DNA of 31,762 nt, from IMG/VR virus record IMGVR_UViG_3300042402_001203, positions 1 to 31,762 of that record; one strand, written 5' to 3'. This document shows, one piece after another, positions 8,810 to 30,401 of this stretch (position 1 is the stretch's first letter; every line of letters begins with the position of its first letter). The DNA comes from a virus. The position numbers and the translations under genes are program-made. The notes beneath the pieces were generated by a model. It searched no databases. It had not been told where the DNA came from and saw only the letters and a list, made by a program, of their open reading frames with translations.

Positions 8810-8810
8810 A

Positions 8811-11800: not shown

Positions 11801-14800
11801 AGAAAAGCAGATTCAATGCAATATAAATATTTCAAATTACGCTGCTTATCAAACTCTTTGTGTTGGAGCTTTATATAGACCCGCTACAGATCCTGTTTGG
11901 CAAAATGAAATAAATCAAAGGGCACAGATAGCTCCACTTGCTCAAGAAGCCTTAAATGCCTACAATAAACAGGAATACCATAAAACATTTGACGGTTCTT
12001 CTACTTCAGTAAGTTTAAGCTCTTCTCAGAGTGAAGTTAAAGTGCTTATTCCTCTTGCTGCTGGACAAATTTACGACGCAGTAAATACAAAAACTGGACC
12101 TTTTATTCCTTCTTATTTTATAACGAATAATAATCAAATAGAAATCTTTACATCACCCGCTGGCTTCGGCGGCAAAATACAAGGTTATGCTGATTCTATT
12201 AGAGTAAATCAAATTGATTTTGATAGACTTTCTTTGTCTAAAGCATTTGCAAGAAATCTTTTCTCAGAAGGTCTTTCTAGGAAAACCACTGTTTATGACG
12301 TAGCAGGAGTTTTACCTTATTCTACATCAAATGATTATTGGGACGGAGAGTTTAAAACTGAAAAAGAATGGACGGATAATCCAGCTTGGTGCTTCTACGA
12401 TCTTTTAACAAATAAGAGATATGGAGTAGGCAACTATGTTACAGAAAATGACGTAGACAAATGGTCTCTTTATCAAATAGCTAAATACTGCGATGAACTT
12501 GTCTCAGATGGATTTGGAGGAGTAGAACCAAGATTTACATGTAATGTTTATTTACAAACACAAGACGATGCTCTTAAAGTGTTGTCTGATATGGCTTCTG
12601 TATTTAGAGGAATGTTCTATTATTCAAATGGATTCATTTATGCCATAAATGATATGCCAGAAGATACCCCTATTTATTCTTTTACTAATTCAAATGTATC
12701 TGATGGTAATTTTACTTACGAATCTACATCATTAAAAGATAGAAATTCTGTAGTCTATATTAGATATATTGATAAGAATAATTTTTATAAACCAGCAGTA
12801 GAATATGTAGAAAATATTGAGGCTGTCAGAAAATTTGGATTTAAAGAAACTGAATTAACAGCCTTTGGATGCACAAGCAGAGGTCAAGCTCAAAGACTTG
12901 GCAGATGGTTATTGGCTTCAGAATACAATGAAACAGAAACAGTTTCTTTTGAAGCTGGCCCAGAGTGCGTATACTTAAAACCCGGAGACGTAATTAAAGT
13001 TTACGATTATAATAGAAAATACAAGACAGTAGGCGGAAGATTAAATAATATTAACATCTCTGGAGACACAAATGTAACTACTGGAATACTAACTCTAGAT
13101 AGAAAACTTGATTTTAACTTTTCTGGAAATCAAAATTATAAGCTAACCATACTTTCTCCCAAGTATAATCTAGATCCTAGCTTTAAAGACGCAGCAGGAG
13201 ACAGTATCGTTACTAGTAACCTTGATTATAATGATTATAGAAAGCCTCTTACTAATTCATTCATAGTAGGAAGCGGTAACTTAATTACTGGTCAATATTA
13301 TGATTCAATTAGAATTACGGGTTTAGCACCAGTAATGGCTTCTGGATTAAACGTGACTGGACTATCTTATTTTACTGGAGCGTCTGGAATGTCTCCTAAA
13401 TCAATAACTTGGGCTTTAGAAAACTCTGGAAACCTTAATGGATCTACTGATAGCGATTATGATTTTTATAGAGTATTTAGAATACAAGAGTCTACAGAGG
13501 GAAGTAATTATACAGTAATTGGCTCGCAGATGTATCACTTAAAGTATGCTCAAATAGAATCTGGATTAAATATCACACCAGCAAAACCACCAGCACCAGA
13601 AGCTTCTGCGCCTTCAAGAGCATTATTTACTCTTGGCGTTGCAGAGGCTAACGGAGTAATAGATCAAAGCAAAGTATTGATTGAAATCTTTTATGACTCT
13701 TCTATAAAAGACACTACGATAGGCTTCAAGATATTTAACAAAGCCTTTTATGGATCAGACTTTAACCCAAATAGCTCTAGTGATTTTAAATTTGTTCCAA
13801 TCGATATTTATGAATCTTATGTAAACACTGTTCTAGACAAGAGCAACATCAAAGGTTCTATAAGAATTTATGGAGCAAATATTAATAATAGCTCTCCATT
13901 AACTTATGTTGAAGCTTCAAATTCTCAAAACTCAAATGAATTATTCGTCTCTCCAGTTGTTGCGATTACTTATGACGATGTAAATACAAGTTCATCTATC
14001 ACTTTGAATAATAAAGTTTATGCTTTTACCTCTCCAATTGATTTAACAAAAGCACAATACTTTCAGTCAACAGTACCTTCTCAAATTCAATCTGTTAAAC
14101 CTCCAGAGTCTTTGTCGTTCAACATCCCCTTGCAATTCATAAAGAACCCAAACAAATTCAACAATCTTGATTACCCTTATAGAATAGCAATAATACCAGA
14201 GAAAGTAGATACAAAAGATGCTTTCGGCACTGTTTACAATAAGTACCTTAATGTTTCAAACTGGGAAGACTATTTAACGTTTGATGAAGATCAAACTAGT
14301 GATAATATATACAACTACAAAACTTCAAATGTTTTTGCTAAGTATAGGAACTTCTCTTTGGCAATTGATAAAATGACATTTACAGATGTTGGAATGAAAT
14401 CTACTTCTAATGATTTTAAGAATGTAGATGGATTTTTACTAGTAACTTACGACAATCAAGATGCTGATTTAAAAACATCTTTAAATGCAATTTTAAAAGA
14501 TACAAGAGCGACCTACTCTATTGTCACAAGTCAAGGATCAAATAGATTAAAATTCACCATTCAGCAAGATACAGCGAGTTCTTTTATTAACACTTTTTAT
14601 CTATTACTAATGCCTAGTGAAAATATATTTGAATTTGGAAAGAATTCAATAAATCACAATCCTGATGGAAGCCCATTCTCTGTTAACGATAATACTGGAA
14701 AAGAAATCGTTGACTCTCACTTTATAACAATATCAAATAACCAATCTATATTTAATTTCAATGACTTAAGTGATGACAACGGTAAGGGATTTGATTCTAC

Positions 14801-16884: not shown

Positions 16885-17712
16885 ATGACGGATGTATTAT
16901 TTTCTTTTGGCGACGAATACATATATTCTAACAACCTAGCAAACTGGTCTACAATAGAACCCAGTAAAGAAATAGAAATTATTGGCAACCCAGAGAAGTT
17001 CTCTGTTGTGCGAACTGCCCTCATTAACTACAGCAAGCCTTTTACTGTAGAATCAAGTTCATTAATTAAATTTAGCGGCACAATTAAAGATTTAATCTTA
17101 GATGGAGACACTATTGATTGCTATTTTGCTCTTTACTATGCTGCATTAATTAATGACATTACTGAATCTGGATCTGGATACAAAGTAAATGAATATGTAA
17201 CTATTGGTAAAAATTCTTACTTTGAATCGTCTATAGATAAAAACCAAAAAGCAGTCCTTCAAATTAAAACTGTCAATAGTGATGGTGGCATTACTGAACT
17301 CCATTTAATTAACAATGGAAAATTTACTCAAAATTTTACTGAAGCAGAATTAGAAGGCGGATCTGGTAAAGGCGCAAAAGTAAGCTTGATTTTGGGTAAA
17401 GACAACAAGAAGGCTCTTAAGTTTTTTTCTGTATTGGACGTAAAGCGAGAAAACGCTTCTACTCTTGTAATGTTAAATGAAAAAATTAAAGACGACTTCC
17501 TTACGGGAGAAGTCTATATAAAACGATACCGCATTACATTAAATAAGGCTACGGGCAAGGAATACCTGAATCAAGCCTTCATTGTAAAGGTAGACAAGAC
17601 TCCTTTTCTTAATCTACCATTAGCCAAAGACAACAATATAGAGCAAATCTATAATCAGGCTATACTAACTATAGATTCTAAGATTAAAGAATTATCTGCT
17701 GGCGTAAAGTAA
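16885..17712 (+). CDS. Putative tail accessory protein with GSGY-type beta module
   Basis: The protein has 275 residues and is the last gene of the plus block, starting 3 bases after its neighbour's stop. Residues about 88-170 hold E-S-G-S-G-Y-K-V-N-E-Y-V-T-I-G, then G-G-I-T-E-L-H-L-I-N-N-G-K-F and G-G-S-G-K-G-A-K-V. This is the alternation of glycine-tyrosine turns and short strands also seen in the C-terminal part of the previous protein. The rest has no recognised motif. Its last 21 bases overlap the end of the TMP gene on the other strand. It is likely structural, perhaps a fibre-tip or head-of-fibre partner for gpJ. The function is unknown. Confidence 0.6.
   Translation: MTDVLFSFGDEYIYSNNLANWSTIEPSKEIEIIGNPEKFSVVRTALINYSKPFTVESSSLIKFSGTIKDLILDGDTIDCYFALYYAALINDITESGSGYKVNEYVTIGKNSYFESSIDKNQKAVLQIKTVNSDGGITELHLINNGKFTQNFTEAELEGGSGKGAKVSLILGKDNKKALKFFSVLDVKRENASTLVMLNEKIKDDFLTGEVYIKRYRITLNKATGKEYLNQAFIVKVDKTPFLNLPLAKDNNIEQIYNQAILTIDSKIKELSAGVK
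17692..17712. other. Tail-to-tail coding overlap at convergent junction
   Basis: The TAA of the plus-strand gene (17710-17712) lies inside the TMP gene, whose own TAA is at 17692-17694 on the minus strand. Both C-termini are therefore coded in the same 21 bases. No hairpin with a T-run is visible around it, so transcripts from both sides should read into each other. Confidence 0.85.
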
Positions 17713-20700
17713 TCCTCCGGGTCTCTTCTGCTCGACCAATACTTCAACGACTTTGCTTCTGAGTAGTTCAGCAAGTTTAGCATTGTTTTGAATATTGTTC
17801 TGATCTTTGTTTGTATTAGAGCCGCCATTTTGAGTGGTAGCATTAGCTTCAGAAGTGACTTCGCCGCTTTGAGCAACATTAATTGAAATGTTATTAACTA
17901 CAGACATTCCAGATTCTTGATTTGCTCCAGCAGCAGAAATTTTACCTGACTCAGCTTGGGTGATGTCATTGCCCTTGGAAAGGTTTTCATTCAATGTATT
18001 AAGAGCAGCGACTAGTTCGGTCACGCTAGATTCAGGAGTATTTTGACCTGCTGTATAACTTGTACCAACCATTCCTCCGCTGGCATACTTAGGCAATGTA
18101 CCAGTATTCAATTGATTCATGAAGTCTCTGCCGTACATATCTACAGCTTTCTTGTTCATGACATATTCGCCGCCCATTAACAAGGCAGGAATATTATCTT
18201 TACCTGTTGATCCACCGCCAGCAAATCTAGCTATATAGCCGCCATTTGACCTAAGATTTCTTGCATATTGAGCGTTTAATTGAGCTTGAGTTAAGTTGCC
18301 TCCGGGTTCTAGACCTCTTGCAGCAGATGTTGCTGCATTAGTTCTCATATTAGCTGCTCCAACCGTAAGACCAGCAGCACCTAATTGAACAGCAGCAGCA
18401 GTTAAACCTGAATAGAAAGTGCTATTTACTTGATTTTTGTAATTTTTAATAGCTTGCTGTTTGTCTTTCTCATACTGCGATCTGTCTTGCAAGTATTGAT
18501 CAAGTTTTTCATAACGATCTTGTCTTAGTCTGTTTTGAGGATTATTCTCGTCAGTTAAAGCTGCGGCTGATAGTCTAGAATCAATAGCAAACTCTCCAGA
18601 AGTTGGACGATCAGGATTATCATATAAGAACTCATTTTGTAATGGACCTACAGAAAATCCACCTACTGCATATTTGGGAACAAGTCCGCCATTCAAGGCT
18701 CTTAAATAATCAGAACCGTATTTTTTAACAGAAGACTTCTTGATAACGTATTCGCCGCCACTCATCATAGCGGGTACATCATCTTTCATTCCAGAGCCAC
18801 CAACAACCATACCTCCAGAATTATAACCTCTGATTAATCCACCATCTTTTCTGCCAGTTGCAGCTTTACCAAAAGCAAATAAAGCATCAACTCCCATCTC
18901 TAAAGACTTATCAAGCATTCTATTTAAGATGCCTTGGAACATATCTCTAAATGCATCCTTAAGAGTTTTAGTTCCTTTGATAGCTTCACCAAATGCACTA
19001 GCAATACCTGATTTGAAATCAGTTTGGAAAGTGTCGATCAATTGACCAGTGTCTCTAGCAAAATCGGCTCTATTGTAAGTAGTATTTTTTTCTGTTATAG
19101 CTCCAATATCTACATTACCTTGGCGAGCTTCATTTTCAATTCTAGCATTAGCAAAAGCCGCTCTTTCATCCTTAAAGAAAGTTTCTCCAAACGAACCTTT
19201 GTAATATAAATTATACAACTCTTCTGCGACCTTACCTTCTTGTTCTAAAGTTTTCTTCCTTAGCTCAGTCTGAAGTTTGATTAGGTCTTCTCTTTTCTTT
19301 GTATCATTTAGGTCTTCTTTTAAAAGGTTATTTACTTTTTCGTTAAGATCGACAAGCTGTTTGTCATTTTCTAATCTAGCCAAAAGCAAATTATTGATAC
19401 TATCTAGATTTGCTCTTCCTTGAGCTAATTGAGTTGGTAAATTTCTTTTAGCACCGCCTTGATCTGCTAAACCATATTTATCAATGATATCTTGTAAAGA
19501 AGGCGCAGTTGATTTATTGCCTACTGACATTAAAGGAGAAGCCGAGTCTAATCTTCTTAACTCTTCTTGTGCAGATTTAATAGACTTTACAGTCTCCTCT
19601 GCCATAGAGACTTTAAAATCTCTATTTATATCTTGAGTTAATCCTTTATAGGTTCCTGAGAGGTTAATCTCTGGACGACCAATTGATTTTTCGCGTGAAG
19701 CGATTAATTGCTCTAATCTTTTTTGATTTCTTAATTGATCTTCATAGGAAGAGCCTAGATCTTCCTGCAACACAACTGCATTATTTATAGTTTCTCTAGA
19801 AGTACCAGTCCCGTAATAGCCTTTTCCATAGCTAACACCTCCAGTAATATTCCCATAATCATCTCTTGAAACTTTAGATGGATCTCCAATTAAATTTTTA
19901 TAAGCTTCTGTAAAAGCTCCTTCTGCTCCGGTTACTGTTACTAAATCAAAACTCTTAAAATAATCTTGTAATTTTTTAATCTCTTTTTCTCTTGCTAGTC
20001 TTATTCCTGCTTCGGCGTTGTTAGTCTGCATAGACATGGACCCTTCTGTATCTCTTAAATTTTGTGACGCAGCTATTCTATTCAATATTGCTTGTCTATC
20101 TGCTGGAGATACGTCAGCAGGAAGCTTATTAAACATTTCGGATTCAAGAGCGTTTCTTTTTGTAGTAACTCCTAATTTGTTAATAACTCCCTGTAATGAA
20201 GTAGTTAAGCTATCTAATTTGCTGCCTACTTGTTCTGTTATAACTCTATTAAAGTTCTCATTTATAGTAGTTGGCAATGTTTTTTCTAAAATAGAATTTT
20301 GATCTTGTGTTAGGTCATTTAAGAATCTAGCTTCTTGTTGTAATATGTCAAGATAGTTCCCCATATTCTCTAACTTAAACTGAGAAGTAATTTGATCTAA
20401 AGCAGTTTTAACTGCGCCTTCTTTTGCTTGGTCAAAAGCCGTTCCTAAAGCAGTACCGGCTGTTGGTTTACCCATTTGAATTTCAGTAACTCTGCGAGCT
20501 AAATCTACGCTTTCTCTTATTTGCTGCACTCTGCCAGCAATAGCTGTTCCTACCAAAGGATTTAAATCAGAAGACACTTGATTATTAAAAGCACTTCCAC
20601 TGGCACTGGGTCCAATGAATCCGCTTGGTTGACCAATGCTTCTATTTAATTGTAATTGATTAGTTAATACATCAAGCAATTTAAAAGCACTAGATCCCCT

Positions 20701-23700
20701 TTGAGCAGCATTTCCAGCAACGTTAGTTTGTCTAAATTCTGAAACTAATTCAGAAATGTTATCAAAAAGTTCAGAAACTCCTGCTTTGCCAGTCGAACTC
20801 AAAGCTTGTGCGCCACCAGCAAAAGAAAGTCTTTGGTTTAGCTCTAAAGATTGTTTTTGATATTCTCTTTGGGCTTCTTGAATTTGAATGTCTATATCTC
20901 CTTGAGCTTTTATTTCGGCGAGAGTATTTTGAAACTCTCCAAAAGATACTTCAAGAGTTTGCACAAGAACATCTCTTTCTTCTGGCTTGAATTGAGAAAA
21001 TCCTCTTATGTTATTTATTAAGTTTGTTTGTATATCTCCTATGTTACCACCAGAATTTATTTGTTTTAATGATTCAGCAATTAAAGGAGTTAATTTCTGA
21101 ATTTGATTTTGGAAGACGGCTCTTTCTTGTTGAATAGCATTTTCAGACTTGGCACCCTCAATAGCAGGAATAACTTTTGATCTAGCTTCTTCTGATTTTT
21201 TAATTATCGTATTTGAGAAAGAATCTAAAAGTTTATTAGAAGCCTCTTGAATTTTAGAATTTTGTCTAGAAGTTATCTCATTTAGATCTAATTGATTTTG
21301 GATGTCCGATTTTGAAGACTCGCTAATAAATGGAGTAGCTGATTCTAAAAGACCTTTAACTCTAGCTCTTTGGATTGAAACCGCGCCTTCTGCTTGAATT
21401 TTATTTATCTCTCTAATAGTTTGAGCGCGATTTTTTTCTATATCAATTTGATTAGAGATTTGAAGATTGATGCTATTGTATTGAGAATTTAAAGATTTAA
21501 GAACTTCTTCATTTTCTTTAAGTCTCTTAGTGTTTTCTGCTAAAATTTCTCCAAGGTTTTTCGATCTTTTGGCGAAATCAAAAACGTCTATTCCTGCTTT
21601 TTTGAGCGAGTCGAATAAAGAACTTAATGCTACAGTATCAAATTCAGCAAAAGCTTTGTCAAGCTGATCAATTATTTCTTCAGGAATAACTGTATTCTGT
21701 TTTAACTGAGCTTTTATATTTTCTACGCTCTCTTTATTAACCATTGGTTGTGCGCCTATGCGGGAACCATAAGGCCCAATAGTCTCTTGACTATAAATAA
21801 TTGCTTGAGATTTTAAAGAATCAATAAATTTAGAAAAGTCTGCTGCGGCATTTTCTCCAGTAAATTTTTTAGTTATATCTTCTGATCTAATAGAAGAGGT
21901 GAATAATCTATTAAACACTTCTTGATCTTTTGGCTTTAAACTACTTCTACCCAAAAAAGAAGATTGCTTTTCAATAAATTGCGTGATAGCTAATTGTCGC
22001 TCTAAATTCTTTTGCGTATTGGCCATTTCTTTATTTACTTCACCAATAGCTTCAGTAACCTTACTTATCTCCGTCCCTGCGGCTAACACTTTACTTCTGA
22101 ACTGTTCAGGAATACTATTTAAAGCTTCTGTTAAATTATTTTGAAACTTTAATAGTGCTTCAGGCTTTGTCTTAGGATCATTTAAAGCGTTTTGTAAACC
22201 TTCTAAAGAAGTAGAGTAATTTTGAGCGGCACCAGAAAACTCAGCAGATCTTTCTTTTGTCTCTCCCAAAGATTTATTAATTTTATCAATAGCCTCTTCA
22301 GCTTTGGCATCTTTTAATTTAATAAGAGCAGATCCAGCTCCTAAAATTACTCCTGCTATTGCTCCGTAAGGGCCAAACTGTGCCCCTAAGCCAGCAAAAG
22401 AAGCTATGTCTCCTAAGCCAGAAGCTGCGGCTCTTCCTGTTTTATTTTCTGGAGATATGAATTGTCCACCAATATTTGAAGCTACACTACCAATTAAACC
22501 AATTTGAGTGCCAAGCCCTCTAACGTATCTATCTGCTTGCCCTCCAGACGCAAAACTTGCTCTTGAAAATACAGGAGCTTGAGCCTGTCTTATATTTTCT
22601 TGCGCTTGTCTTCGTCCTTCTCTAGCAGCAGATAATTCTTCTCTTGCTTTTTTTCTTAGTTCAGATTGTTGTTTTCTTAGCTCTTCTAATCTAGCTACTT
22701 GTTCTGGAGACGCAGCAACAGGAGAACTTGTAACAATACCAAATTGATCTCTAGTTGTTTTTCCGACTAAAGGAGCGGTAGCAGTGCCTTGAAGTTTTAA
22801 AGTTGTTTTATTTACATTTGTAAATGTTCTTTGAATCTCATCAGATATTGCTTTTTGGCTCTTTTTGAAGTCTTTTGGTATTTGTCCTATCTGTTGAGAA
22901 TAAGAAGCGGCAGCAGAAGCATTTGATTTAATTAAAGTATCAGAACTACCTTTTAAAGTTCTAAGGCTTCCTGCAACTTCTTTTAAAGCAGTACTAAGAG
23001 TTCCAAAAGCAGCAATTAATATAAAAGCATCTGCGCCCCCAAACTCAGCAAAATTAGGAATATGTCCTCTTGCAGACATTCCTTTTGTCTTAGGGTCTAT
23101 TCCAGCTTTCTCTGCCAAGCCAATTCCATTATTAAGAGATCCTTCTGTAGAATTATAAACACCCAATCCCATTGGATTGAAGCTAGTCTTTAATTTATCG
23201 CTTCTACCTAATCTAACCTGAGAAGCAGAATATCCAGCAGACATCTCTCTATTCATTGCCTCCATAACTGGATTAAAATTAGGAATATAACCTGAAGCAA
23301 ATCTAAAATCATCTTCGTATCCGAGACTACCTAAAGAAGATTTTCTCTTAGAAGCTAGGCCGCTTCCTAGATTAAACATTCCTGTATCGACTATGCTAAC
23401 TTTACCACCTTTAGTAAAAATAGAGCTTAAAATTCTGTCAATTTGAGCTTCTGCATCTTTGTTGTCTTTTGATTCAATAGACTTTAGTAATTTCTCATAA
23501 TTTCTTCTAGAAATCTTAGACAAGATACCTTCAGCTACTTGATTATACATCATGTTGCCAAGGTTTTGAGTTAAATCAACTGCCTCCATTCTACCTCCTG
23601 CATTAATTTGAGAAGTAGCTCTGTCGGCTATGATTTCTGCGAGTTGGACAAATCCTCTTCTTTCTCCAGTATATTCGTCTAAATTTTCAGAAATTTCTTG

Positions 23701-26700
23701 TGCTGTTTTTCCAGAAAAAATCTCTTTATAAATAGCACTCTTTTGTATAGCTTTTGACAATGCTCCGTAAATCTTAGGAGTTTCAAAAATTGGGTTTAAT
23801 TGTTCTGCATTAATCATCTGGCCAAGTTCTTGTGAAGCTAAGTATTCATTTGCTACATTAGATTTTGTAGATGATTCGTTATCTGGGAATTGTTTTACTC
23901 CTAGATTTCCTCTTAATGCAGAAAATGTTCCAAAAAATCCGGGTTTTCCTAATTGCATTCTAGCAAAGTTAGGAATATGACCCGATGAATAATTAGATAC
24001 GAAATCTCTAAACTTTGAAGATTTGCCCTCATCAATAATAGATTTGTTTTGCTTATAAGTAGAAATGATGAAGTTCATCAACTCGGGAGTTAGTGAACCT
24101 TGAATTTCTTTTAAATAAGAGCCTACTTGCTCTGCGTTAGCTGCCCAAACGCTTGCCATTGATTTAGCATGAGCTTCTCCTTCTGTTCTATTAACTTGGT
24201 GAGCGGCTTCATGAAAAACAGTATCTAATATTTCTCTAGAATAGATGTCTCTAAATTTACCAACTGATTTTATTTTCTTTCCTTGTTTAGCTTTTTCTTG
24301 AGAAATCTTTCTAATTCTATCTATAACTGTCTCTACATGAGCAAATGGTTCAACTATAGATTTCGTACCTACTTCTTTTGATGAAGCAGTATTTAAACCC
24401 ATCCAATTAGCTCCAACAGCTAAACCTCTAAATGAAGCATTAGCCATTCTTGGATCAAAAATCTCAGAAGCCTGTCCAATTGTTTGTTCAAAAACGCTTT
24501 TTAAAGCAGCACCAAAATTTTGGAATTTAGGATTTCCAGCAATACTCTCCATTGTTCCTTTAGGCAAAGAAGAAGAAACATCAAGAAGCTCAAGATCAGA
24601 ACCCATTTGATAAGAAGGGACATTCCTAACGCTATCTTCTTGAGCGCGTTTTAATTGTGCAGCTAAATCCTGTACGGCAGATTTTGCCATTTTGCCTAAT
24701 GGCCCTCTTAACTCAGTTCTGTCAGTATTCCAAGGATAATTTGGATCACCTGCACCAACATTACTCCTAACATTAAACATTAAACTTTTAGGAATATAGT
24801 CTACTCCTTCTACTTTATAGTTAGCATACTTCATTCCCTCTGACAGCATGGGAATCTGAGCGTATCCATAAGTTTTTTGAGGATCTCCTTGAGGATCAAA
24901 CAATATATCTACTTCTCCACCTTCTGCCGTTAAAGTTCTTTGTACTGAAGATTTACTAGGATCAAATTTAGAAAAATAATATTTTCTATAGCTAGGATCT
25001 TCATTTCTAGTATTAATTGTTTGCCTCAATAAACCAGAAGAAGCAGTAGTAAATTTAAATGGAAGTTCTGCTACTTTTCCTGCTCTATTCTCTAAATAAC
25101 TTCCATAAGATATATAACCCTCTTTAGAAGGAGAAGCAGCGAAAGTGGTTCCCATTATTGGAGTATTCTTTTTTTCTGGATTGACTTCTCTCCAAAACAT
25201 TTTTAACCCATCAAAATTTAAATCACCTCTTGGTTGATTAAAAAGAGTTTCATCTAAACTTATTTTGCCCTTTTGTATGAAATTATTCCATCCTTCTGGG
25301 GTTCCAGAAACAATTGTTCTTATCTTTCTACCATTTATTTCTTTTATAGTATCAAGAAGGAACTTCTTGGAACCCATGAAAATAGAAGCTTTTCCCATTC
25401 CAAATCCAGATAATCCTTTATTACCTCCTTCATTTCCTGTTTGAGCATATGGTAAAAATTTAGTGAATACATCTTCTGGAGACATTCCAGTGCCAACATC
25501 ACTAATTGCAAACTCATTTGGCTTTCCATATCCGCTTACTCCAATGAAAACTCCCTTTTCTTGTCCTGATTGACCGTGAGCGACAGCGTTTTGCAAAGAC
25601 TCTCTAAATACTGTTTCGGGATTAATATCCATTTGTGCTAAATTAATTCCCATTAATCTAGCAGTATTTACTGTTTGAAAGTCTTTTTGAGCAAAATTTG
25701 GTATAAAACCTTTTGAAAATCCAGTACTAAGTTGACTTACCTTTTTTTCTTGAGCCTTAAAATGCTCTGCCATTTGTAGGCCGAATTTCTTCTTAACTTT
25801 ACCAATAAACGATCTTACAGCATCATCATTATTTCTTAATTTATAATCTCCATATTGATCTCCAAATCCGGGGAAAAACTGTCTTACATTTCCAATATTT
25901 CCCCCAATTACGTCAAAATCTCCAACACCACCACCAGATTGATCTCTTGTGTAATTAGCGGCTAAATTAGTAGAAGCTTCAAAAATAGTACCAGCAAGAA
26001 CAGAATAATTTTTACCTGCCTTATTAAAAAATTCATCAACAGAAGCATCCGAATATTCTCCGGGTCTAATATAATTAGCAATTTGTTTTGTTGTTCTGCG
26101 AGAGAAATCTGCTGTTTGTGTAATTAGATTAGTTTTTTCTTCGTTTTGAGAAGACGAATTTAAAGCATAAGATTTAATCTTAAAAGCTCTTCCGTCTTCT
26201 TTTCTCTTAGTTAATATTTCTTCGGTCTTTTCATCTGCAAATAGTTCCTTATTTTTTGCATCTAAATCAAATACAAGCATTGAAGCAGGAGGAACATAAG
26301 GATCATAAACTTGCTTAATTCCTTCTTTGATATTTTCTTGACCTGCTATTTTCTTTCCGGGTGCAAAGTCGCGTCTAATAGCGTTTAAATCTGATATAGC
26401 TCCAGATTTCCATCTTGGATCATCTTTTAAAATACTATCTGGAACATATTTTCTAATATCTCCATAAGTGGCTCCTCTTCTAACAAATGTATTTAAATCA
26501 TTTGCAGTAAAAGCAGAACCGTCAGTTTTATAAAAACCTTTATCTTGACTCCAAGCTGCCGATGTTCCAGTTGTAATTTGAGAAAGAGAAACGGAAGCAG
26601 ATAGACCAGACCCAAGCCACCAATCATTATCTCCATAAGAAGGATTGGTTAAAGGTTTTGGAGCAAAATTAGGAATGAATCCTTTAGCCATGTAAGGATT

Positions 26701-28563
26701 AATTCCATTTTTAGCCATGGATTTTGAAGCTAATTGAGTTGCTGCGCGAGATCCTTGAGGAGGAAGAATATAAGGTTGAGCGAAACCGGGAATATATTTA
26801 ACTGTTTCGGCAGTATTCATTATTCCGCCAATTGACTTTGGAGCAGCAACTACTCTACCGGGAGTATAACCACCTTGCATAGCTCCAACCATCTCTGCGG
26901 CTTGCTGTTTAGCTGGAATATACCCTTCTGCGCTTCTTCTTCCAACAATAGTATTCTTTTCAGAAACTCTTAAGCCTGAAGCTAAAAATCTACCGCCTAT
27001 ATCAATAGAAGAATTTTTAATCTGTTCTGCTAAAGCAGCTTGTTCTATAAGAGTTTGTTTTATTTGCTGCTCTACTTGCAAGCGAGTTCTAGATCCAGAA
27101 ATAATGTCTTTAATTAGATCGGGATTATCAGAAAGAATTTTACCAATTTCTGATTGTAAAACAGCTTGTTGTCTTCCAAGAGTATTAAGTCCCAAAAGAT
27201 TTTTAGTTGCATCTCCAGCGAATTTAGTAAAGTTAGCTAATAGTTTTCCAATTGCAAACGCTCCAATACCTAAACCGGGACCAGTTATAAAATTAGTAAC
27301 ACCACTTAATACACCAGTCGCAATTTTTTCGCCAACTCCCTCTGCGTCTTTTTCATTGTAAGACTCTAAGCTTGAATTAATATAGCCCAAAACTTTTCTA
27401 ATTCCGGGTCCAACGCTTGCTTCTCCAATTGAGGTAGCAAATTTTGTAAAATTAATAGTTGTTTCATTAAGCAAAGCAGAAAGACTTTCGTTTAATGCTT
27501 TATTCTTTAAGATAGCTTCGTCTGCTGCCTTAGAGGAAGTTCTTGTAGCTTCTGCGAATGCAGAATTTTGTTTTGATACGTCTGCTAATGCCGCTTTTAA
27601 AATGTTAATTTGATAAACACCACCAACAAGTTCAGCAACTTGAGATTTAATAACAGGATTTAAATTTTGAAATGACTGAGCCAAGTTTTCAATAACTTTA
27701 ATCGTTGGCAAAGCATTTCCTGAAATATCAGTAACAGCAATACCAAAGTCTTTCAAATCACTGATAACTTGAGGTCTTTCTATTCTTGTAAAAATAGTCT
27801 TTAAAGCGTTACCGATTACAGCACCACCACGGGCAGTTGTTTGCTGAACAGAAGTAACAATACCTAACAATTCATCAAAACTAACTCCAGCTTCGCTGGC
27901 TGAAGAACCTACACGCTGAATAGCTTCGGACAAGTCTCTAGAACTAACTGCGAATTTAGCGTCAACGGCGGCTAACTTATTTACTACATCAGTTGTAGTG
28001 AGAGCTTCTTTTGTAAATGAGTTTACAGCAGCAGTAAGAGCCTCAGTACTAGAAACGACATCAAGACCAGAAAGACGAGTTAAGATAAGAGCATCTCTTG
28101 TTCTCTTTAATGTCTCTTCTAATCCCAAACCTTGTCTTGAAAATTCTGTTGCAGCACTGGCTACATCTTTAAAAGCCGATCCAGTATTTTTTGCTACACT
28201 AAATAACTGATCTCCAAATTGCTTGATACCCTTAGAAGATGTATTTAATACTACATTGATATCAGTAAGAGACTTTTCTACTTCGATAGTAGTATTTACT
28301 AAAGAGGAAAATGACTTTTGAACTGCAAAAATAAGACCAGCAGAAGCTCCGAATGCGACTACACGGGCATTTGAAGCTTCCAAAGACTTTTGGAATTCAT
28401 TAGCTAAACCAGTAATTTTACCCAGTGGTTGAGAAAAATTTCTTGTATTTAGAGAAAGATTACTCTTGCTCTGGATACGGTTCAACGCCGACAACACATC
28501 TTTTTCAAGTTGCGCGGCAGCAAATGTCGCTGAAATGGGAATATTTCCTGCTGATGTAGCCAT
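17692..28563 (-). CDS. Giant tape measure protein with embedded enzyme-like domains
   Basis: The protein has 3623 residues; lambda gpH has about 850. The ATG at 28563 has a TAAGGA site. Residues about 95-350 are the TP901-type TMP core (S-R-Q-G-L-G-L-E-E-T, then D-L-S-E-A-I-Q-R-V-G). Residues about 620-1840 are not tape-like: a PD-(D/E)XK-like segment, a GHKL ATPase, a HEAAH zincin-like site and a weakly kinase-like segment, framed by five G-x-I-P-N-F motifs (628, 952, 1528, 1758, 1833). A hydrophobic glycine/alanine segment lies near 2045-2075. Residues about 1850-3400 are mostly long helices and coiled coil, fitting the tape. The C-terminus has two K-D-x-x-P-A ... G-G-E-Y-V ... P-K-Y-A repeats typical of TMPs. 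TMP sets tail length and is ejected at infection. Two paralogous chaperone genes precede it. Confidence 0.93.
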   Translation of the reverse strand: MATSAGNIPISATFAAAQLEKDVLSALNRIQSKSNLSLNTRNFSQPLGKITGLANEFQKSLEASNARVVAFGASAGLIFAVQKSFSSLVNTTIEVEKSLTDINVVLNTSSKGIKQFGDQLFSVAKNTGSAFKDVASAATEFSRQGLGLEETLKRTRDALILTRLSGLDVVSSTEALTAAVNSFTKEALTTTDVVNKLAAVDAKFAVSSRDLSEAIQRVGSSASEAGVSFDELLGIVTSVQQTTARGGAVIGNALKTIFTRIERPQVISDLKDFGIAVTDISGNALPTIKVIENLAQSFQNLNPVIKSQVAELVGGVYQINILKAALADVSKQNSAFAEATRTSSKAADEAILKNKALNESLSALLNETTINFTKFATSIGEASVGPGIRKVLGYINSSLESYNEKDAEGVGEKIATGVLSGVTNFITGPGLGIGAFAIGKLLANFTKFAGDATKNLLGLNTLGRQQAVLQSEIGKILSDNPDLIKDIISGSRTRLQVEQQIKQTLIEQAALAEQIKNSSIDIGGRFLASGLRVSEKNTIVGRRSAEGYIPAKQQAAEMVGAMQGGYTPGRVVAAPKSIGGIMNTAETVKYIPGFAQPYILPPQGSRAATQLASKSMAKNGINPYMAKGFIPNFAPKPLTNPSYGDNDWWLGSGLSASVSLSQITTGTSAAWSQDKGFYKTDGSAFTANDLNTFVRRGATYGDIRKYVPDSILKDDPRWKSGAISDLNAIRRDFAPGKKIAGQENIKEGIKQVYDPYVPPASMLVFDLDAKNKELFADEKTEEILTKRKEDGRAFKIKSYALNSSSQNEEKTNLITQTADFSRRTTKQIANYIRPGEYSDASVDEFFNKAGKNYSVLAGTIFEASTNLAANYTRDQSGGGVGDFDVIGGNIGNVRQFFPGFGDQYGDYKLRNNDDAVRSFIGKVKKKFGLQMAEHFKAQEKKVSQLSTGFSKGFIPNFAQKDFQTVNTARLMGINLAQMDINPETVFRESLQNAVAHGQSGQEKGVFIGVSGYGKPNEFAISDVGTGMSPEDVFTKFLPYAQTGNEGGNKGLSGFGMGKASIFMGSKKFLLDTIKEINGRKIRTIVSGTPEGWNNFIQKGKISLDETLFNQPRGDLNFDGLKMFWREVNPEKKNTPIMGTTFAASPSKEGYISYGSYLENRAGKVAELPFKFTTASSGLLRQTINTRNEDPSYRKYYFSKFDPSKSSVQRTLTAEGGEVDILFDPQGDPQKTYGYAQIPMLSEGMKYANYKVEGVDYIPKSLMFNVRSNVGAGDPNYPWNTDRTELRGPLGKMAKSAVQDLAAQLKRAQEDSVRNVPSYQMGSDLELLDVSSSLPKGTMESIAGNPKFQNFGAALKSVFEQTIGQASEIFDPRMANASFRGLAVGANWMGLNTASSKEVGTKSIVEPFAHVETVIDRIRKISQEKAKQGKKIKSVGKFRDIYSREILDTVFHEAAHQVNRTEGEAHAKSMASVWAANAEQVGSYLKEIQGSLTPELMNFIISTYKQNKSIIDEGKSSKFRDFVSNYSSGHIPNFARMQLGKPGFFGTFSALRGNLGVKQFPDNESSTKSNVANEYLASQELGQMINAEQLNPIFETPKIYGALSKAIQKSAIYKEIFSGKTAQEISENLDEYTGERRGFVQLAEIIADRATSQINAGGRMEAVDLTQNLGNMMYNQVAEGILSKISRRNYEKLLKSIESKDNKDAEAQIDRILSSIFTKGGKVSIVDTGMFNLGSGLASKRKSSLGSLGYEDDFRFASGYIPNFNPVMEAMNREMSAGYSASQVRLGRSDKLKTSFNPMGLGVYNSTEGSLNNGIGLAEKAGIDPKTKGMSARGHIPNFAEFGGADAFILIAAFGTLSTALKEVAGSLRTLKGSSDTLIKSNASAAASYSQQIGQIPKDFKKSQKAISDEIQRTFTNVNKTTLKLQGTATAPLVGKTTRDQFGIVTSSPVAASPEQVARLEELRKQQSELRKKAREELSAAREGRRQAQENIRQAQAPVFSRASFASGGQADRYVRGLGTQIGLIGSVASNIGGQFISPENKTGRAAASGLGDIASFAGLGAQFGPYGAIAGVILGAGSALIKLKDAKAEEAIDKINKSLGETKERSAEFSGAAQNYSTSLEGLQNALNDPKTKPEALLKFQNNLTEALNSIPEQFRSKVLAAGTEISKVTEAIGEVNKEMANTQKNLERQLAITQFIEKQSSFLGRSSLKPKDQEVFNRLFTSSIRSEDITKKFTGENAAADFSKFIDSLKSQAIIYSQETIGPYGSRIGAQPMVNKESVENIKAQLKQNTVIPEEIIDQLDKAFAEFDTVALSSLFDSLKKAGIDVFDFAKRSKNLGEILAENTKRLKENEEVLKSLNSQYNSINLQISNQIDIEKNRAQTIREINKIQAEGAVSIQRARVKGLLESATPFISESSKSDIQNQLDLNEITSRQNSKIQEASNKLLDSFSNTIIKKSEEARSKVIPAIEGAKSENAIQQERAVFQNQIQKLTPLIAESLKQINSGGNIGDIQTNLINNIRGFSQFKPEERDVLVQTLEVSFGEFQNTLAEIKAQGDIDIQIQEAQREYQKQSLELNQRLSFAGGAQALSSTGKAGVSELFDNISELVSEFRQTNVAGNAAQRGSSAFKLLDVLTNQLQLNRSIGQPSGFIGPSASGSAFNNQVSSDLNPLVGTAIAGRVQQIRESVDLARRVTEIQMGKPTAGTALGTAFDQAKEGAVKTALDQITSQFKLENMGNYLDILQQEARFLNDLTQDQNSILEKTLPTTINENFNRVITEQVGSKLDSLTTSLQGVINKLGVTTKRNALESEMFNKLPADVSPADRQAILNRIAASQNLRDTEGSMSMQTNNAEAGIRLAREKEIKKLQDYFKSFDLVTVTGAEGAFTEAYKNLIGDPSKVSRDDYGNITGGVSYGKGYYGTGTSRETINNAVVLQEDLGSSYEDQLRNQKRLEQLIASREKSIGRPEINLSGTYKGLTQDINRDFKVSMAEETVKSIKSAQEELRRLDSASPLMSVGNKSTAPSLQDIIDKYGLADQGGAKRNLPTQLAQGRANLDSINNLLLARLENDKQLVDLNEKVNNLLKEDLNDTKKREDLIKLQTELRKKTLEQEGKVAEELYNLYYKGSFGETFFKDERAAFANARIENEARQGNVDIGAITEKNTTYNRADFARDTGQLIDTFQTDFKSGIASAFGEAIKGTKTLKDAFRDMFQGILNRMLDKSLEMGVDALFAFGKAATGRKDGGLIRGYNSGGMVVGGSGMKDDVPAMMSGGEYVIKKSSVKKYGSDYLRALNGGLVPKYAVGGFSVGPLQNEFLYDNPDRPTSGEFAIDSRLSAAALTDENNPQNRLRQDRYEKLDQYLQDRSQYEKDKQQAIKNYKNQVNSTFYSGLTAAAVQLGAAGLTVGAANMRTNAATSAARGLEPGGNLTQAQLNAQYARNLRSNGGYIARFAGGGSTGKDNIPALLMGGEYVMNKKAVDMYGRDFMNQLNTGTLPKYASGGMVGTSYTAGQNTPESSVTELVAALNTLNENLSKGNDITQAESGKISAAGANQESGMSVVNNISINVAQSGEVTSEANATTQNGGSNTNKDQNNIQNNAKLAELLRSKVVEVLVEQKRPGGLLYASR
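18073..18246 (-). repeat. TMP C-terminal repeat, copy 2
   Basis: This encodes residues 3440-3497. After G-G-Y-I-A-R-F-A it runs G-K-D-N-I-P-A-L-L, G-G-E-Y-V-M-N-K-K-A-V, Y-G-R-D and ends L-P-K-Y-A-S-G-G. It matches copy 1, about 195 residues upstream, position by position. Such K-D-x-x-P-A / G-E-Y-V segments are a recurring C-terminal feature of tape measure proteins. Confidence 0.8.
18658..18840 (-). repeat. TMP C-terminal repeat, copy 1
   Basis: This encodes residues 3242-3302: M-K-D-D-V-P-A-M-M, G-G-E-Y-V-I-K-K-S-S-V, Y-G-S-D, and finally V-P-K-Y-A-V-G-G. The order and spacing are the same as in the copy at 18073-18246. Confidence 0.8.
23047..23067 (-). repeat. IPNF linker motif 5 in TMP
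   Basis: This encodes G-H-I-P-N-F-A at residues 1833-1839, preceded by S-A-R. It is the last copy, at the border between the cargo region and the helical tape region. Confidence 0.8.
23272..23292 (-). repeat. IPNF linker motif 4 in TMP
   Basis: This encodes G-Y-I-P-N-F-N at residues 1758-1764, preceded by A-S. It is the only copy with N in place of the final A, and follows the kinase-like segment. Confidence 0.8.
23344..23961 (-). other. TMP cargo segment 4: weakly kinase-like
   Basis: This encodes residues about 1535-1740, between the third and fourth IPNF motifs. It shows G-N-L-G-V-K1557-Q-F, a helix with E1573/E1579, D1663-L-T-Q-N-L-G-N-M-M, and S-I-V-D1726-T-G-M-F. These recall the kinase lysine, helix-C glutamate, catalytic-loop D-x-x-x-x-N and D-F-G elements in the right order. 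However, the gap of about 63 residues between the last two is far longer than the usual ~20, and the catalytic-loop match is loose. Treat this as a hypothesis. Confidence 0.3.
23962..23982 (-). repeat. IPNF linker motif 3 in TMP
   Basis: This encodes G-H-I-P-N-F-A at residues 1528-1534, preceded by S-S. It separates the zincin-like segment from the kinase-like segment. Confidence 0.8.
23989..24426 (-). other. TMP cargo segment 3: zincin-like metallopeptidase site
   Basis: This encodes residues about 1380-1525. H1451-E-A-A-H1455 is an HExxH zinc-binding and catalytic motif inside a helix (L-D-T-V-F before it). E1461 and E1463-A-H1465 follow within 10 residues and could supply the third ligand. 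Short zincin domains with this arrangement occur among phage-delivered polyvalent protein domains. HExxH can arise by chance, but its position in a predicted helix with a following acidic/histidine cluster supports it. Confidence 0.55.
24664..25671 (-). other. TMP cargo segment 2: GHKL (HSP90-type) ATPase domain
   Basis: This encodes residues about 965-1300. All three Bergerat-fold motifs are present in order and spacing: N-box E988-S-L-Q-N992-A-V-A-H996, G1 box D1022-V-G-T-G1026-M-S, and G2 box G1050-L-S-G-F-G-M-G-K1058. The following ~240 residues (through D-R-T-E-L-R-G-P near 1281) look like the alpha/beta transducer-type region that follows HATPases of the HSP90/MutL class. ATP binding is well supported; the action is unknown. 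I know of no usual reason for a tape measure protein to contain this fold. Confidence 0.8.
25690..25710 (-). repeat. IPNF linker motif 2 in TMP
   Basis: This encodes G-F-I-P-N-F-A at residues 952-958, preceded by S-K. It separates the nuclease-like segment from the GHKL ATPase. Confidence 0.8.
25759..26196 (-). other. TMP cargo segment 1: PD-(D/E)XK nuclease-like
   Basis: This encodes residues about 790-935. A-G-T-I-F-E862 on a helix, then G-D882-F-D884-V-I-G, then Y-G-D906-Y-K908-L-R match the E ... D ... (D/E)xK layout of the restriction-endonuclease fold, with plausible spacing (22 residues from D884 to D906). The last motif is DxK rather than the commoner ExK. The call is by motif only. 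Confidence 0.5.
26662..26682 (-). repeat. IPNF linker motif 1 in TMP
   Basis: This encodes G-F-I-P-N-F-A at residues 628-634, preceded by A-K. A weaker relative, K-Y-I-P-G-F-A, lies at 589-595. It opens the cargo region. Confidence 0.8.
27514..28281 (-). other. TMP TP901-type core domain
   Basis: This encodes residues about 95-350. Helical segments V-E-K-S-L-T-D-I-N, A-A-T-E-F-S-R-Q-G and A-L-T-A-A-V-N-S-F, then S-S-R-D-L-S-E-A-I-Q-R and G-N-A-L-K-T-I-F-T-R-I, match the conserved core shared by TP901-1-type tape measure proteins. This region identifies the whole gene. Confidence 0.88.
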
Positions 28564-28583: not shown

Positions 28584-28608
28584 AATTACACTTAAACGCC
28601 GTGTAATT
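28584..28608. repeat. Inverted repeat AATTACAC / GTGTAATT upstream of TMP
   Basis: Perfect 8-base arms at 28584-28591 and 28601-28608 surround a 9-base loop. The repeat spans the end of the upstream chaperone gene, including its stop codon, about 20 bases before the TMP ATG. The core TTACAC/GTGTAA is the same as in the inverted repeat at 4862-4892. No T-run follows on the minus strand, so it is more likely a control or RNA-processing element than a terminator. Confidence 0.55.
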
Positions 28609-29608
28609 TGATTAAATCTTCAAAACTTAATGAGCCGCCTTTTTTCTTTGCGGCTTCATCTAGAGAGATGGCTCCAGTATTGTCTTGCTTTAATTTCTTT
28701 AGGTCTTCCTTGGTAGCTCCCATGACAGAAACTGCCTGAACCGCTGTTTCTTTACCTGAAGCAGCGTTCTTATCTTCATGTAATTTTTCAAGATTACTGC
28801 TAGACTCATACCAATCAATAATCTTATCTACATCATCATTATATTCATCAGGATGCTTGACGCTAGACTTGCTCATCAAGTCTTTGAAGTATCTAGCGTA
28901 TCCAAACAATTCAACCTGATAGAATGTCAAATGAGTAACTGGCTTACCAAAGAAAAAGAAGGGATTATCCTCTGCTAAGTAAAAATAATTAAGGAAAAAT
29001 CCGCTAACTCCTATTCTTTTTATATTATGGTTATTGAACTTTTGGGCGCATTTAGAATATGCACCAACTAAATTAAATAATTCAACTTGATCTATATCTT
29101 CAAATTCTTCTAATGTAAAAGCCTGTTTTTCGCATTTTTCATCAAGGTATACAGAATAATAAATATAAAACTCATTCATTCTTTTGCCCGAATAAGTCTC
29201 GCAAGTGTTTTCTAGGAGATCGTCTTTCTTTTGCTGTAACCGATTAGTTTCTTCAGTTATCTCTTTCATCTGCCTATCAATATTCTCCAAGTCTCTAGTT
29301 AAGTATAATTTGCGGCGAGTTTTCATTAAATTCGCAAGAGTAAGTCTATTATTTTCTATCTTTTTATCGTCTTTTTCGTTGTATATATTTTCTTTAATTA
29401 GCTCTTTTATCTTTTCTTCGTTTGTTGGAATACCTTGGGATTTAGCTTTGTTATAATAGTAATTTTCTTGAACTTCAATTGTTCCTGCGTCTTTTGGAGA
29501 CATATGCTTAACATAGTAAGTCTTACCATTTAATTTAAATGAAGAAGACCCAGTTACTATATCCCAATAAAGAGATTTTAGATTTTTATTAAAAGCTTCT
29601 AGATCCAT
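28592..29608 (-). CDS. Putative tail assembly chaperone, paralogue 2
   Basis: The protein has 338 residues, between the first chaperone paralogue and TMP, which is where lambda G/GT sit. It is a diverged copy of the 246-residue protein upstream: L-L-E-N-T-C-E-T at 131-138 against L-F-D-N-T-A-E-T at 154-161, and D-E-K-C-E-K-Q-A-F against E-K-N-G-E-K-Q-P-F exactly 24 residues later in both. A coiled coil lies at about 85-130. It has a longer charged C-terminal tail (about 270-338). The ATG at 29608 has no Shine-Dalgarno; it is preceded by TTTTTAGTAT at the foot of a terminator-like hairpin, and an in-frame TAG two codons upstream excludes an earlier start. It is likely a TMP-binding assembly chaperone; the role comes from position. 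Confidence 0.65.
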   Translation of the reverse strand: MDLEAFNKNLKSLYWDIVTGSSSFKLNGKTYYVKHMSPKDAGTIEVQENYYYNKAKSQGIPTNEEKIKELIKENIYNEKDDKKIENNRLTLANLMKTRRKLYLTRDLENIDRQMKEITEETNRLQQKKDDLLENTCETYSGKRMNEFYIYYSVYLDEKCEKQAFTLEEFEDIDQVELFNLVGAYSKCAQKFNNHNIKRIGVSGFFLNYFYLAEDNPFFFFGKPVTHLTFYQVELFGYARYFKDLMSKSSVKHPDEYNDDVDKIIDWYESSSNLEKLHEDKNAASGKETAVQAVSVMGATKEDLKKLKQDNTGAISLDEAAKKKGGSLSFEDLIKLHGV

Positions 29609-29660: not shown

Positions 29661-30401
29661 TTAAAAGATTTTTTGTTCTAACTTTAGCACATCGAAGTCC
29701 TCCTTCGAATTTGCTCTACCGACGTACCAGAAACTAATAAAGTAAATGAAAGCGTTAGCTACTTTTACTAGATGAGGATCTTCTGATTCAAAGATTTCGT
29801 CATACCTGTTCATTCGGGCTTCATAATCTCCTTCACCAAAGAATGGTTGTTTCTCCCCGTTTTTCTCATAGTATGACAAAAATAATATCCACCAAGTAAT
29901 TACTTTATTACGCGCCCTTGTTTCTGCGGTATTGTCAAACAACGACTCTTTTTGTACCTCTAGTTCTGTTAGAGAGTTTTTAATTACAGTAATCTTGGTT
30001 TCTAGCTCTTCTTTTTTAGCTGTAAAATAATCTGGTCGATCTTTCTCTTCTAAAGCAAGAAGTCTTTGCAACTCGTTTTGAGCATCATACAAATCCTTAT
30101 AAGCATCTGCTTCTGCGTTTTTAGTTCTATCTGCTAAAATTCCACCATCATCAACATATCTCTTATTTAGTAGAGTACGAGTAAGAAGACCAGCTTTTAC
30201 TCCTTCAGAAAGCTTAACGCCATAAAACAATTCAGCTTCGTCAAACAAAGCTCTAGTAGGCTTTTTGATAAAATAGTTATGAGGAATCTGAGTAGTTACG
30301 TCTTTAGTAATCGTGACTTTTTGACCAGCCTCGTTTACAGACTCTTCTGTTTCTTTTACAACACCTTCTTTATTTATTGCAAATTCGTATATCGTTTTCA
30401 T
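29661..30401 (-). CDS. Putative tail assembly chaperone, paralogue 1
   Basis: The protein has 246 residues. The start overlaps the stop of the small upstream gene as TAATG. The middle (about 98-155) is a strongly charged helical coiled coil with a heptad-like L/I pattern, and the C-terminal ~90 residues are aromatic-rich (V-I-T-W-W-I-L-F-L-S-Y-Y). It is homologous along most of its length to the 338-residue protein downstream, including the L-F-D-N-T-A-E-T and G-E-K-Q-P-F segments. The position between tube protein and TMP is the classic place of tail assembly chaperones, which coat TMP during tail assembly. No programmed frameshift extending it is evident: the -1 frame after the A-rich end stops within about nine codons. 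Confidence 0.62.
   Translation of the reverse strand: MKTIYEFAINKEGVVKETEESVNEAGQKVTITKDVTTQIPHNYFIKKPTRALFDEAELFYGVKLSEGVKAGLLTRTLLNKRYVDDGGILADRTKNAEADAYKDLYDAQNELQRLLALEEKDRPDYFTAKKEELETKITVIKNSLTELEVQKESLFDNTAETRARNKVITWWILFLSYYEKNGEKQPFFGEGDYEARMNRYDEIFESEDPHLVKVANAFIYFISFWYVGRANSKEDFDVLKLEQKIF

Follow-up and report, generated by a model that had tools for sequence, protein, structure and literature searches.

A phage tape measure protein with a motif-bounded array of exchangeable, partly enzyme-like cassettes between its TP901 core and its tape

The tape measure gene and its motif-bounded cassettes

Analysis of the IMG/VR virus record IMGVR_UViG_3300042402_001203, whose whole stretch of 31,762 bases is referred to here as the window, revealed a single open reading frame (ORF) at 17692-28563 of the complementary strand that encodes a tape measure protein (TMP) of 3,623 amino acids (aa); all features of this protein given below lie on the same strand. 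PF10145 (TP901/PhageMin_Tail) is matched at aa 124-310 with an E value of 4.6e-28, above the cut-off, and PHROG tape-measure families match the N-terminal part of the protein with a best E value of 1.8e-51. The TP901-type core, as delimited by a hidden Markov model (HMM) of the core, covers aa 44-477 (27133-28434) and is 41-84% identical to that of 35 relatives. With this core match, and with a tail gene cluster beside the gene, the protein is a TMP of the TP901/PhageMin_Tail type. The tape region, judged helical by its composition only, extends over aa 1840-3240 (18844-23046). Three IMG/VR contigs carry the TMP at 100% identity, L003 and L005 (all 3,623 aa) and L004 (aa 566-3623), so that an assembly artefact is unlikely.

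The initial annotation had placed about 1,200 residues other than tape between the TP901 core and the tape, and this was borne out. The interval, 23047-26682, corresponds to aa 628-1839 and begins and ends exactly with the outermost two of five copies of a heptapeptide, G-[FYH]-I-P-N-F-[AN], which had escaped that annotation. The copies are GFIPNFA at aa 628-634 (26662-26682), GFIPNFA at aa 952-958 (25690-25710), GHIPNFA at aa 1528-1534 (23962-23982), GYIPNFN at aa 1758-1764 (23272-23292) and GHIPNFA at aa 1833-1839 (23047-23067). They divide the interval into cassette A (aa 635-951, 25711-26661), cassette B (aa 959-1527, 23983-25689), cassette C (aa 1535-1757, 23293-23961) and a conserved module D before the last motif (aa 1765-1832, 23068-23271). 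Module D, likewise absent from the initial annotation, recurs before the last motif in many relatives and is probably a module of the TMP and not cargo; it found no match in a collection of 50,697 records of cultured phages, where a second query containing module D gave only three matches at E 7. The C-terminal region of the TMP (aa 3241-3623, 17695-18843) carries GLVPKYA (aa 3293) and GTLPKYA (aa 3488), which resemble the motif.

IMG/VR was scanned with a DNA pattern for G[FY]IPNFA, which occurs in at least 119 stretches, and the 80 listed ones were examined. An ORF of at least 100 aa with the motif was present in 77 of them, and in 71 a single ORF contained at least two copies, with a maximum of eight copies per ORF. 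The TP901 core was recognised in 56 of the 79 motif-bearing proteins examined; in the other 23 the first motif lies no more than 361 residues from the start of the fragment, as expected if the fragments were cut upstream. The consensus derived from 724 distinct contexts is A-[AS]-x-G-[FY]-[IV]-P-N-F-A, and when the N position was left free it was N in 983 of 1,021 matches.

To lessen the circularity of this selection, IMG/VR was also searched with an alignment of 36 core sequences, 41-84% identical to that of the window and themselves drawn mostly from motif-selected loci. At least 552 stretches encode relatives, and the best 80 were kept, so that the sample is biased to close relatives of the window; 75 of the 80 contain the core string, and 61 of these have a stop codon. 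All 61 carry two or more copies of the motif under a slightly wider pattern, and in all 61 the core, the cassettes and the tape lie in one open frame. The common layout, present in 42 of the 75, consists of the core, a motif near residue 540, about 82 aa, a motif, about 260 aa, a motif, about 74 aa (module D), a motif and the tape. The region in the window is an expanded form of a layout common to many uncultured TMPs and no one-off insertion.

The motif is confined almost entirely to TMPs. The TMPs of the 75 core-selected loci contain 274 strict copies, and the other ORFs of these loci, 373,030 aa in total, contain none. In the loci selected by motif, the listed TMP ORFs account for 237 copies, a further copy of the window TMP for five and a short other ORF for one, and four permuted motifs gave no copy there. 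The strict motif was found in none of the five TMPs of cultured phages with a related core. The DNA that encodes it is diverse, with 121 distinct 18-mers in the 274 copies and a codon entropy slightly below background. Conservation of the motif is therefore stronger in the protein than in the DNA. This makes a docking or processing signal more likely than a DNA target, and the motif is most likely a protein-level signal at the cassette edges. A literature search with the string IPNFA yielded no phage-protein paper, as judged by titles and the beginnings of abstracts. Two near-empty cassettes were observed, in L048 (cassette L048_c4) and in L148 (aa 2137-2151), where the motif starts are 10 and 15 aa apart; they may be footprints of cassette loss, or landing sites.

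In the 60 core-selected TMPs for which length statistics were computed, all with a stop codon, the distance to the first motif hardly varies (coefficient of variation, CV, 0.06), while the cassette region is the most variable part (280-1,649 aa, CV 0.53) and the part after the last motif measures 547-2,238 aa (CV 0.27); the lengths of the latter two are not correlated (Spearman 0.17, P 0.18). Among six close relatives (L142, the twin of the window, L144-L147 and L149) the cassette region ranges from 372 to 1,377 aa and the part after it from 1,626 to 1,794 aa. Since the cassette region varies while the part after it varies less, these lengths suggest that the cassettes lie outside the ruler that sets tail length.

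Exchange of cassettes between tape measure proteins

Comparison of the window TMP with that of L006 revealed 99.4% identity over the N-terminal 627 aa, 62.7% in cassette A, 97.9% in cassette B, 22.7% in cassette C, 98.5% in module D and 96.4% in the first part of the tape, cassette C being replaced in L006 by a dissimilar cassette. In the DNA, identity holds up to the motif codons before cassette C, is lost across the cassette and returns in the motif codons after it. L008 carries a divergent cassette A (32.2%) and lacks cassettes B and C, and L145, whose core is 87% identical to that of the window, has five other cassettes between A and D. The cassettes A of L006 and L145 differ by a synonymous divergence (dS) of only 0.039, with a ratio of nonsynonymous to synonymous divergence (dN/dS) of 0.66, while the N-terminal parts of the window, 99.4% identical to L006 there, and of L145 have a dS of 0.735. 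This indicates that cassette A moved between lineages.

The 42 TMPs with the four-motif layout gave 26 pairs whose N-terminal parts are 85-99.5% identical; the pairs share members and are not independent. Their median identities are 86.7% for the first short module, 86.4% for module D, 54.7% for the start of the tape and 26.7% for cassette A, and in 17 of the 26 cassette A falls below 30%, with a shuffled baseline of 23.7%. All seven pairs with 93-98% N-terminal identity have cassettes A that are 22-29% identical, with flanking modules at 70-98%; in the three pairs at 99.1-99.4% cassette A is 81-98% identical. L158 and L177, for example, are 97.8% identical in the N-terminal part, 25% in cassette A, 97% in module D and 95% in the tape, and between L173 and L207 the 13 neighbouring genes compared are 81-96% identical and the cassettes A 22%. 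Conversely, ten pairs of cassettes that are 90-98% identical, among the 25 matches listed, belong to TMPs whose cores, some of them partial, are 57-69% identical. These comparisons showed that a cassette is acquired, lost or replaced as a block and that the core and the short flanking modules are left in place, a feature that the initial annotation had not recorded.

A toxin-immunity pair was considered and is unsupported, as no adjacent gene swaps together with cassette A in the four pairs compared. At the other end of the protein, the last 444 aa are 98.6% identical between the window and L008 and the tape before them only 40.8%, as if the C-terminus had been exchanged or were very strongly constrained.

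Catalytic signatures of the cassettes and genomic setting

Cassette A contains the residues E862, D884 and D906-x-K908 in the stretches GTIFEA (aa 858-863), GDFDV (881-885) and GDYKL (905-909), encoded at 25837-25992. Cassettes were compared with their motifs trimmed off, as iterative HMM searches chained unrelated cassettes when the motif ends were left on. The 169 motif-trimmed cassettes fell into 47 HMM groups, of which the largest (42 members) includes cassette A of the window; in the full set this group accounts for 130 of 388 non-redundant cassettes. Alignment of 102 cassette A sequences, 11-29% identical to that of the window except for one at 70%, revealed that the first position is E in 100 and D in 2, the second D in all 102, the third D in 71 and E in 31, and the last K in all 102. 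Over all 132 members the corresponding figures are E 128 and D 4, D 131 and E 1, D 92 and E 40, and K 132, and G858 is invariant. This order of residues, with its alternation of D and E, is that of a PD-(D/E)XK active site, a pattern for which occurs in 10 of 151 cassettes of relatives against 1.35 in residue shuffles. A first structure model of cassette A, built with 39 sequences, had a predicted local distance difference test (pLDDT) score of 75; a second, built with 102 sequences, reached a pLDDT of 87.9 and a predicted template modelling score (pTM) of 0.82, with a confident domain at aa 751-951. The initial annotation had named a PD-(D/E)XK-like segment and called for structure prediction. 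The signature stood and the domain could be modelled confidently, but the fold found no significant match. Since the signature is kept and comparisons with folds, Pfam and Mrr_cat gave no match, cassette A is treated here as nuclease-like by signature, its fold being unconfirmed.

Cassette B combines a predicted GHKL ATPase with a zincin-like HEAAH site within one pair of motifs, in agreement with the initial annotation on both. The sequences ESLQNA (aa 988-993), DVGTGM (1022-1027) and GFGMGKAS (1053-1060) represent the GHKL boxes N, G1 and G2, and the cassette matches HATPase_c_3 (E 3.7e-5, 24.2 bits against a cut-off of 25) and HATPase_c (E 6.4e-5, 23.8 bits against 26.4). HEAAH lies near the end of the cassette (aa 1451-1455, 24199-24213) and is followed by EGEAHA (1461-1466), a candidate for the downstream Glu of zincins; a PHROG family of unknown function matches there with E 0.0014. 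HExxH occurs in 5 of the 151 cassettes against 0.23 in shuffles, one of the five being the L006 copy of cassette B. In the search of close relatives cassette B turned up on no contig other than L006 and the three that are identical to the window, and its dN/dS of 0.143 against L006 points to purifying selection. Weak similarities were found to plasmid ATP-binding proteins (E 4e-4), to rIIA of a Yersinia phage (tblastn E 6e-3 over 89 aa) and to the PHROG RIIA family (E 0.05); the resemblance to rIIA appears too weak for membership.

The loosely kinase-like segment of the initial annotation could not be sustained. Among the patterns tried in cassette C only DTG (aa 1726) occurs, and GxGxxG, V.[MA].K, HxD, HRD and D[FY]G were all absent. 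The DTG aligns with the DxG of five kinase-like cassettes of relatives, and the score of cassette C against these five, 14.5, was exceeded by 2 of 20 of its own shuffles. The five, one each from L064, L033, L057, L148 and L218, are kinase-like by eye, and each aligns with the other four over short stretches (hhalign E 1.3e-4 to 7.3e-3, probabilities 5-54%).

A Pfam scan of 144 of the 151 further cassettes identified AAA_30 (five members, best E 3.5e-4), SNase (three, best 2e-9), GNAT (three, best 6.7e-8), a cytidyltransferase-related nucleotidyltransferase domain (6.1e-8), PcfJ (3e-7) and others at E values up to 0.01; SNase, PcfJ and the nucleotidyltransferase domain are above the Pfam cut-offs in named cassettes, and one SNase cassette also matches thermonuclease chains (E 5.5e-4). 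In comparison with residue shuffles, DxD[GE]T (6 against 0.75) and [VI]x[DV]GD[TS] (5 against 0.14) are in excess in the 151 cassettes, and the P-loop pattern is in modest excess (11 against 3.97). The GNAT pattern was found in none of the 151 (0.98 in shuffles) though Pfam detects GNATs, and is thus a poor pattern. Labels given by eye only are GNAT-like (cassettes of L145 and L006), HAD-like and ParB-like (ParB_N E 0.044). ADP-ribosyltransferase labels given to cassettes of L145 and L057 from motifs seen by eye were rejected, as Pfam matches nothing in either; searches of PDB and of phages gave no support for the L145 candidate. PADLOC returned weak matches only. Three cassettes of L145 (aa 1087-1296, 1523-1721 and 1722-1931) look by eye like copies of one another, and some cargo seems to multiply within one TMP.

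On the forward strand, convergent to the TMP gene, the window carries a lambda-type set of tail-tip genes (4913-16181) with PHROG matches to minor tail, tail assembly and central fibre J proteins. With such a set beside the TMP, the tail is most likely noncontractile, of the siphophage type. Two adjoining genes of this block, 6593-7351 and 7345-8091, both match the minor-tail family phrog_30, which suggests a duplication in the tail-tip operon. The J-like tail-tip protein (8811-16181, 2,456 aa) has its best PHROG J stretch at aa 1176-1448 with about 1,000 residues on each side, one stretch of which looks by eye like a lectin-like insert. The window genes upstream of the TMP gene, 28592-29608 and 29661-30401, have no PHROG match, nor has a 553-aa gene (L003:4939-6600) that lies upstream of the TMP gene in L003 and L006; L008 lacks this gene, and its neighbouring ORFs otherwise have the same order and similar lengths. 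In the cultured phages L312 and L316, which have a related core, a frameshifted tape-measure chaperone is annotated directly upstream of the TMP gene.

The core was found in ten genome-contig loci, all from metagenome-assembled genomes (MAGs) and none from an isolate. Records of Flavobacteriales or Flavobacteriaceae account for five of the ten, of which two belong to one MAG, and flavobacteria are a first guess for the host. Among 148 genomes of one order the core was strong in two, both among the ten MAG loci, and weak in two more. A tblastn search of the 50,697 cultured records with aa 1-1857 matched 188 records, all below 60% identity (28.6% in the top row) and, among the matches listed, confined to the core part.

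Proposed role, alternatives and meaning

The TMP carries a modular, motif-bounded array of cassettes after its TP901 core. What the array does is read here as follows: with a probability of roughly 0.6, the TMP is a carrier of effectors that act early in infection, in effect a polyvalent protein built into the tape measure. The string of enzyme-like cargo domains and the parallel with polyvalent proteins, both proposed in the initial annotation, are well supported by the motif-bounded cassettes, the catalytic signatures, the enzyme families in relatives and the block exchange. By analogy with other tailed phages it seems likely that the cassettes enter the bacterium with the phage DNA. In the siphophage JBD30 (PMC11445458) a TMP trimer occupies the tail, its C-terminus being located in the baseplate, and its expulsion is proposed to form the DNA channel. 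During lambda infection the TMP was labelled by TurboID-ManZ, which places it next to ManYZ at the inner membrane during injection, and the membrane nuclease SNIPE associates with it (PMC13190303).

We infer that packing in the lumen, ejection, refolding and activity would proceed as follows. The cassettes would sit as beads on a string in the tail tube, between core and tape; as they are N-terminal of the tape they would, by analogy, be proximal to the head and leave late, next to the DNA. They would exit behind the ejected tape, and refolding would take place in the cytoplasm or at the inner membrane. There the targets might be the DNA of the host or its defences, with cassette A working as a PD-(D/E)XK-type nuclease and cassette B combining a GHKL ATPase with a zincin domain. 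The motif could serve to pack the beads, as a docking site for a chaperone or for the lumen, or to release them, as a processing site. A bolder version of this proposal, which we put forward only tentatively, is that the motif serves as a dedicated loading or release signal and that the TMP is a programmable multi-effector injector of a large uncultured phage lineage: any domain flanked by two motifs would travel in the tail, leave it together with the tape and be liberated in the host, and effectors would be traded cassette by cassette.

Several observations weigh against the effector-carrier reading. Neither model of cassette A has a significant fold match: the first gave only poor Foldseek rows (TM below 0.25) and VIA Z values of at most 3.1 to Rab GTPases, and the second no significant Foldseek match in PDB or among viral models and a best VIA Z of 3.7, to GTPases. 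There is no credible Pfam family for cassette A, and hhalign of the cassette against 13 Mrr_cat proteins, the only family tried, returned a probability of 0.05% and an E value of 0.81; nothing useful came from sequence searches of PDB, for which the region as well as cassettes A and B served as queries. The GHKL matches of cassette B are just below the Pfam cut-offs, cassette C has no significant Pfam or PHROG family, most cassettes of relatives match no family, and the ADP-ribosyltransferase (4 against 0.73, with a shuffle maximum of 4) and GHKL patterns (1 against 1.12) are not clearly enriched. The tape, too, diverges strongly in many of the pairs in which cassette A differs, as its median shows, so that cassette A is not the only fast part. 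The strict motif is present in only five of the ten MAG loci with a core, several of the rest being fragments, and is missing from the 3,547-aa ORF of L134 and the 1,449-aa ORF of L138. No cultured relative was found in the collection searched. Finally, folded domains of 200 aa are about as wide as the tail lumen, so packing must be in single file or unfolded.

Some of these points would also suit cassettes that are structural or channel-forming modules of the TMP, engaged in assembly, membrane passage or receptor adaptation, with degenerate, non-catalytic look-alikes of enzymes. The missing fold match of cassette A, the many cassettes without a Pfam family and the conserved, structural-looking module D and first module of about 82 aa all point that way. 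We consider this rather unlikely, since E, D and [DE]xK are kept in cassettes A of such low identity, real enzyme families occur elsewhere, three of them above the Pfam cut-offs, and the cassettes are exchanged while the flanking modules remain unchanged. The motif at every cassette edge, the A-[AS]-x-G start, which could suit a protease, and the zincin-like site of cassette B, with HExxH in four other cassettes, would fit a different scheme, in which the cassettes are excised at the motifs, either ahead of tail assembly or in its course, and act late in the producing cell without being injected; processing before packaging has a precedent in DdrB of phage P1 (PMC5512222). Late effectors, however, need no tape-measure carrier, the core, cassettes and tape share one open frame in every complete TMP of the core-selected set, and no protease was recognised among the neighbouring genes scanned, with PHROGs only. 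Such late action is, in our view, improbable.

Cassette diversity could also reflect escape from membrane defences that sense the TMP, the cassettes being a hypervariable surface that acts as decoy or adaptor and carrying no enzyme payload. Binding of SNIPE to siphophage TMPs is reported, and changes in the TMP let a phage evade enhanced SNIPE variants (PMC13190303); among the four parts compared, moreover, cassette A varies most where the TMPs are otherwise similar. Escape would require neither the conserved E, D and [DE]xK residues nor in-frame SNase, GNAT and P-loop domains, and the reported TMP changes fall in stretches of about 50-100 residues (PMC13190303), which leaves this explanation with a similarly small chance. 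Still less probable, in fact highly improbable, are selfish mobile elements, that is, nuclease-bearing in-frame insertions homing into the DNA that encodes the motif. Cassette A is nuclease-like, the boundaries of exchange lie in motif codons, and nuclease genes at exchange boundaries between phages have been published (PMC10448857). Against this, the codon diversity of the motif disfavours it as a DNA-level target for homing or recombination, and cassettes other than nucleases share the same boundaries.

The effector-carrier reading places the TMP beside several known systems. The polyvalent proteins of Iyer et al. 2017 (PMC5512222) share with it several conflict-type enzyme domains in one giant polypeptide, a common zincin, presumed delivery with DNA and the shuffling of domains; a combination of distinct conflict-type domains in one polypeptide is indicated here by cassettes A and B together with the SNase, GNAT, AAA, nucleotidyltransferase and PcfJ domains of relatives. 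Unlike them, the present array has a tape measure as carrier and a conserved heptapeptide between cassettes, and the word 'tape' does not occur in the main text of that paper. The nearest published carrier found is Sle1, a TMP-related effector of a contractile Streptomyces particle (PMC13277306), which is likewise a TMP-like protein of a tail-like particle with a coiled coil and a variable, exchangeable effector domain; another TMP-related effector of a contractile injection system is described in S. davawensis (PMC11126660). Sle1 has one variable C-terminal domain in a contractile system, whereas the window TMP has several internal cassettes, lambda-type tail genes and the motif, and thus neither the C-terminal effector nor the contractile system of Sle1-type effectors.

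Enzymes fused to TMPs with a related core are also seen in Bacillus phage Stills, whose TMP is annotated with LysM and lysozyme, and in YomI, a putative transglycosylase; by annotation these are cell-wall enzymes. The N4 virion RNA polymerase (PMC12633501) resembles the proposed carrier in its length of about 3,500 residues, its beads-on-a-string form and its proposed passage through a channel of about 35 A into the cell, but it is a schitovirus enzyme and no tape measure, and its abstract mentions no cassette array. rIIA-type GHKL counter-defence proteins (PMC7824862) share with cassette B a GHKL domain and a variable C-terminal part; unlike them, cassette B lies inside a TMP and carries HEAAH. 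Among the matches listed in literature searches, whose coverage falls short of most subscription journals and bioRxiv, no paper on cassette arrays in phage TMPs was found. On the effector-carrier reading the known kind is that of polyvalent effectors, and what is new would be their carriage by the TMP of a probable siphophage.

Should the cassettes be injected, the tape measure of phages with lambda-type tails would provide a general route of protein delivery that brings in several effectors per particle, the sites of cargo exchange being marked by a short peptide. This would be an extra carrier beside the known phage routes that bring effectors with the DNA, and a new way for viruses to act on the cell at the moment of infection. 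The passage of protein domains through a long narrow tail would become directly testable, and the array would offer a natural design for protein delivery via a phage tail. It would also suggest functions, open to test, for many of the unexplained giant TMPs of environmental viromes.

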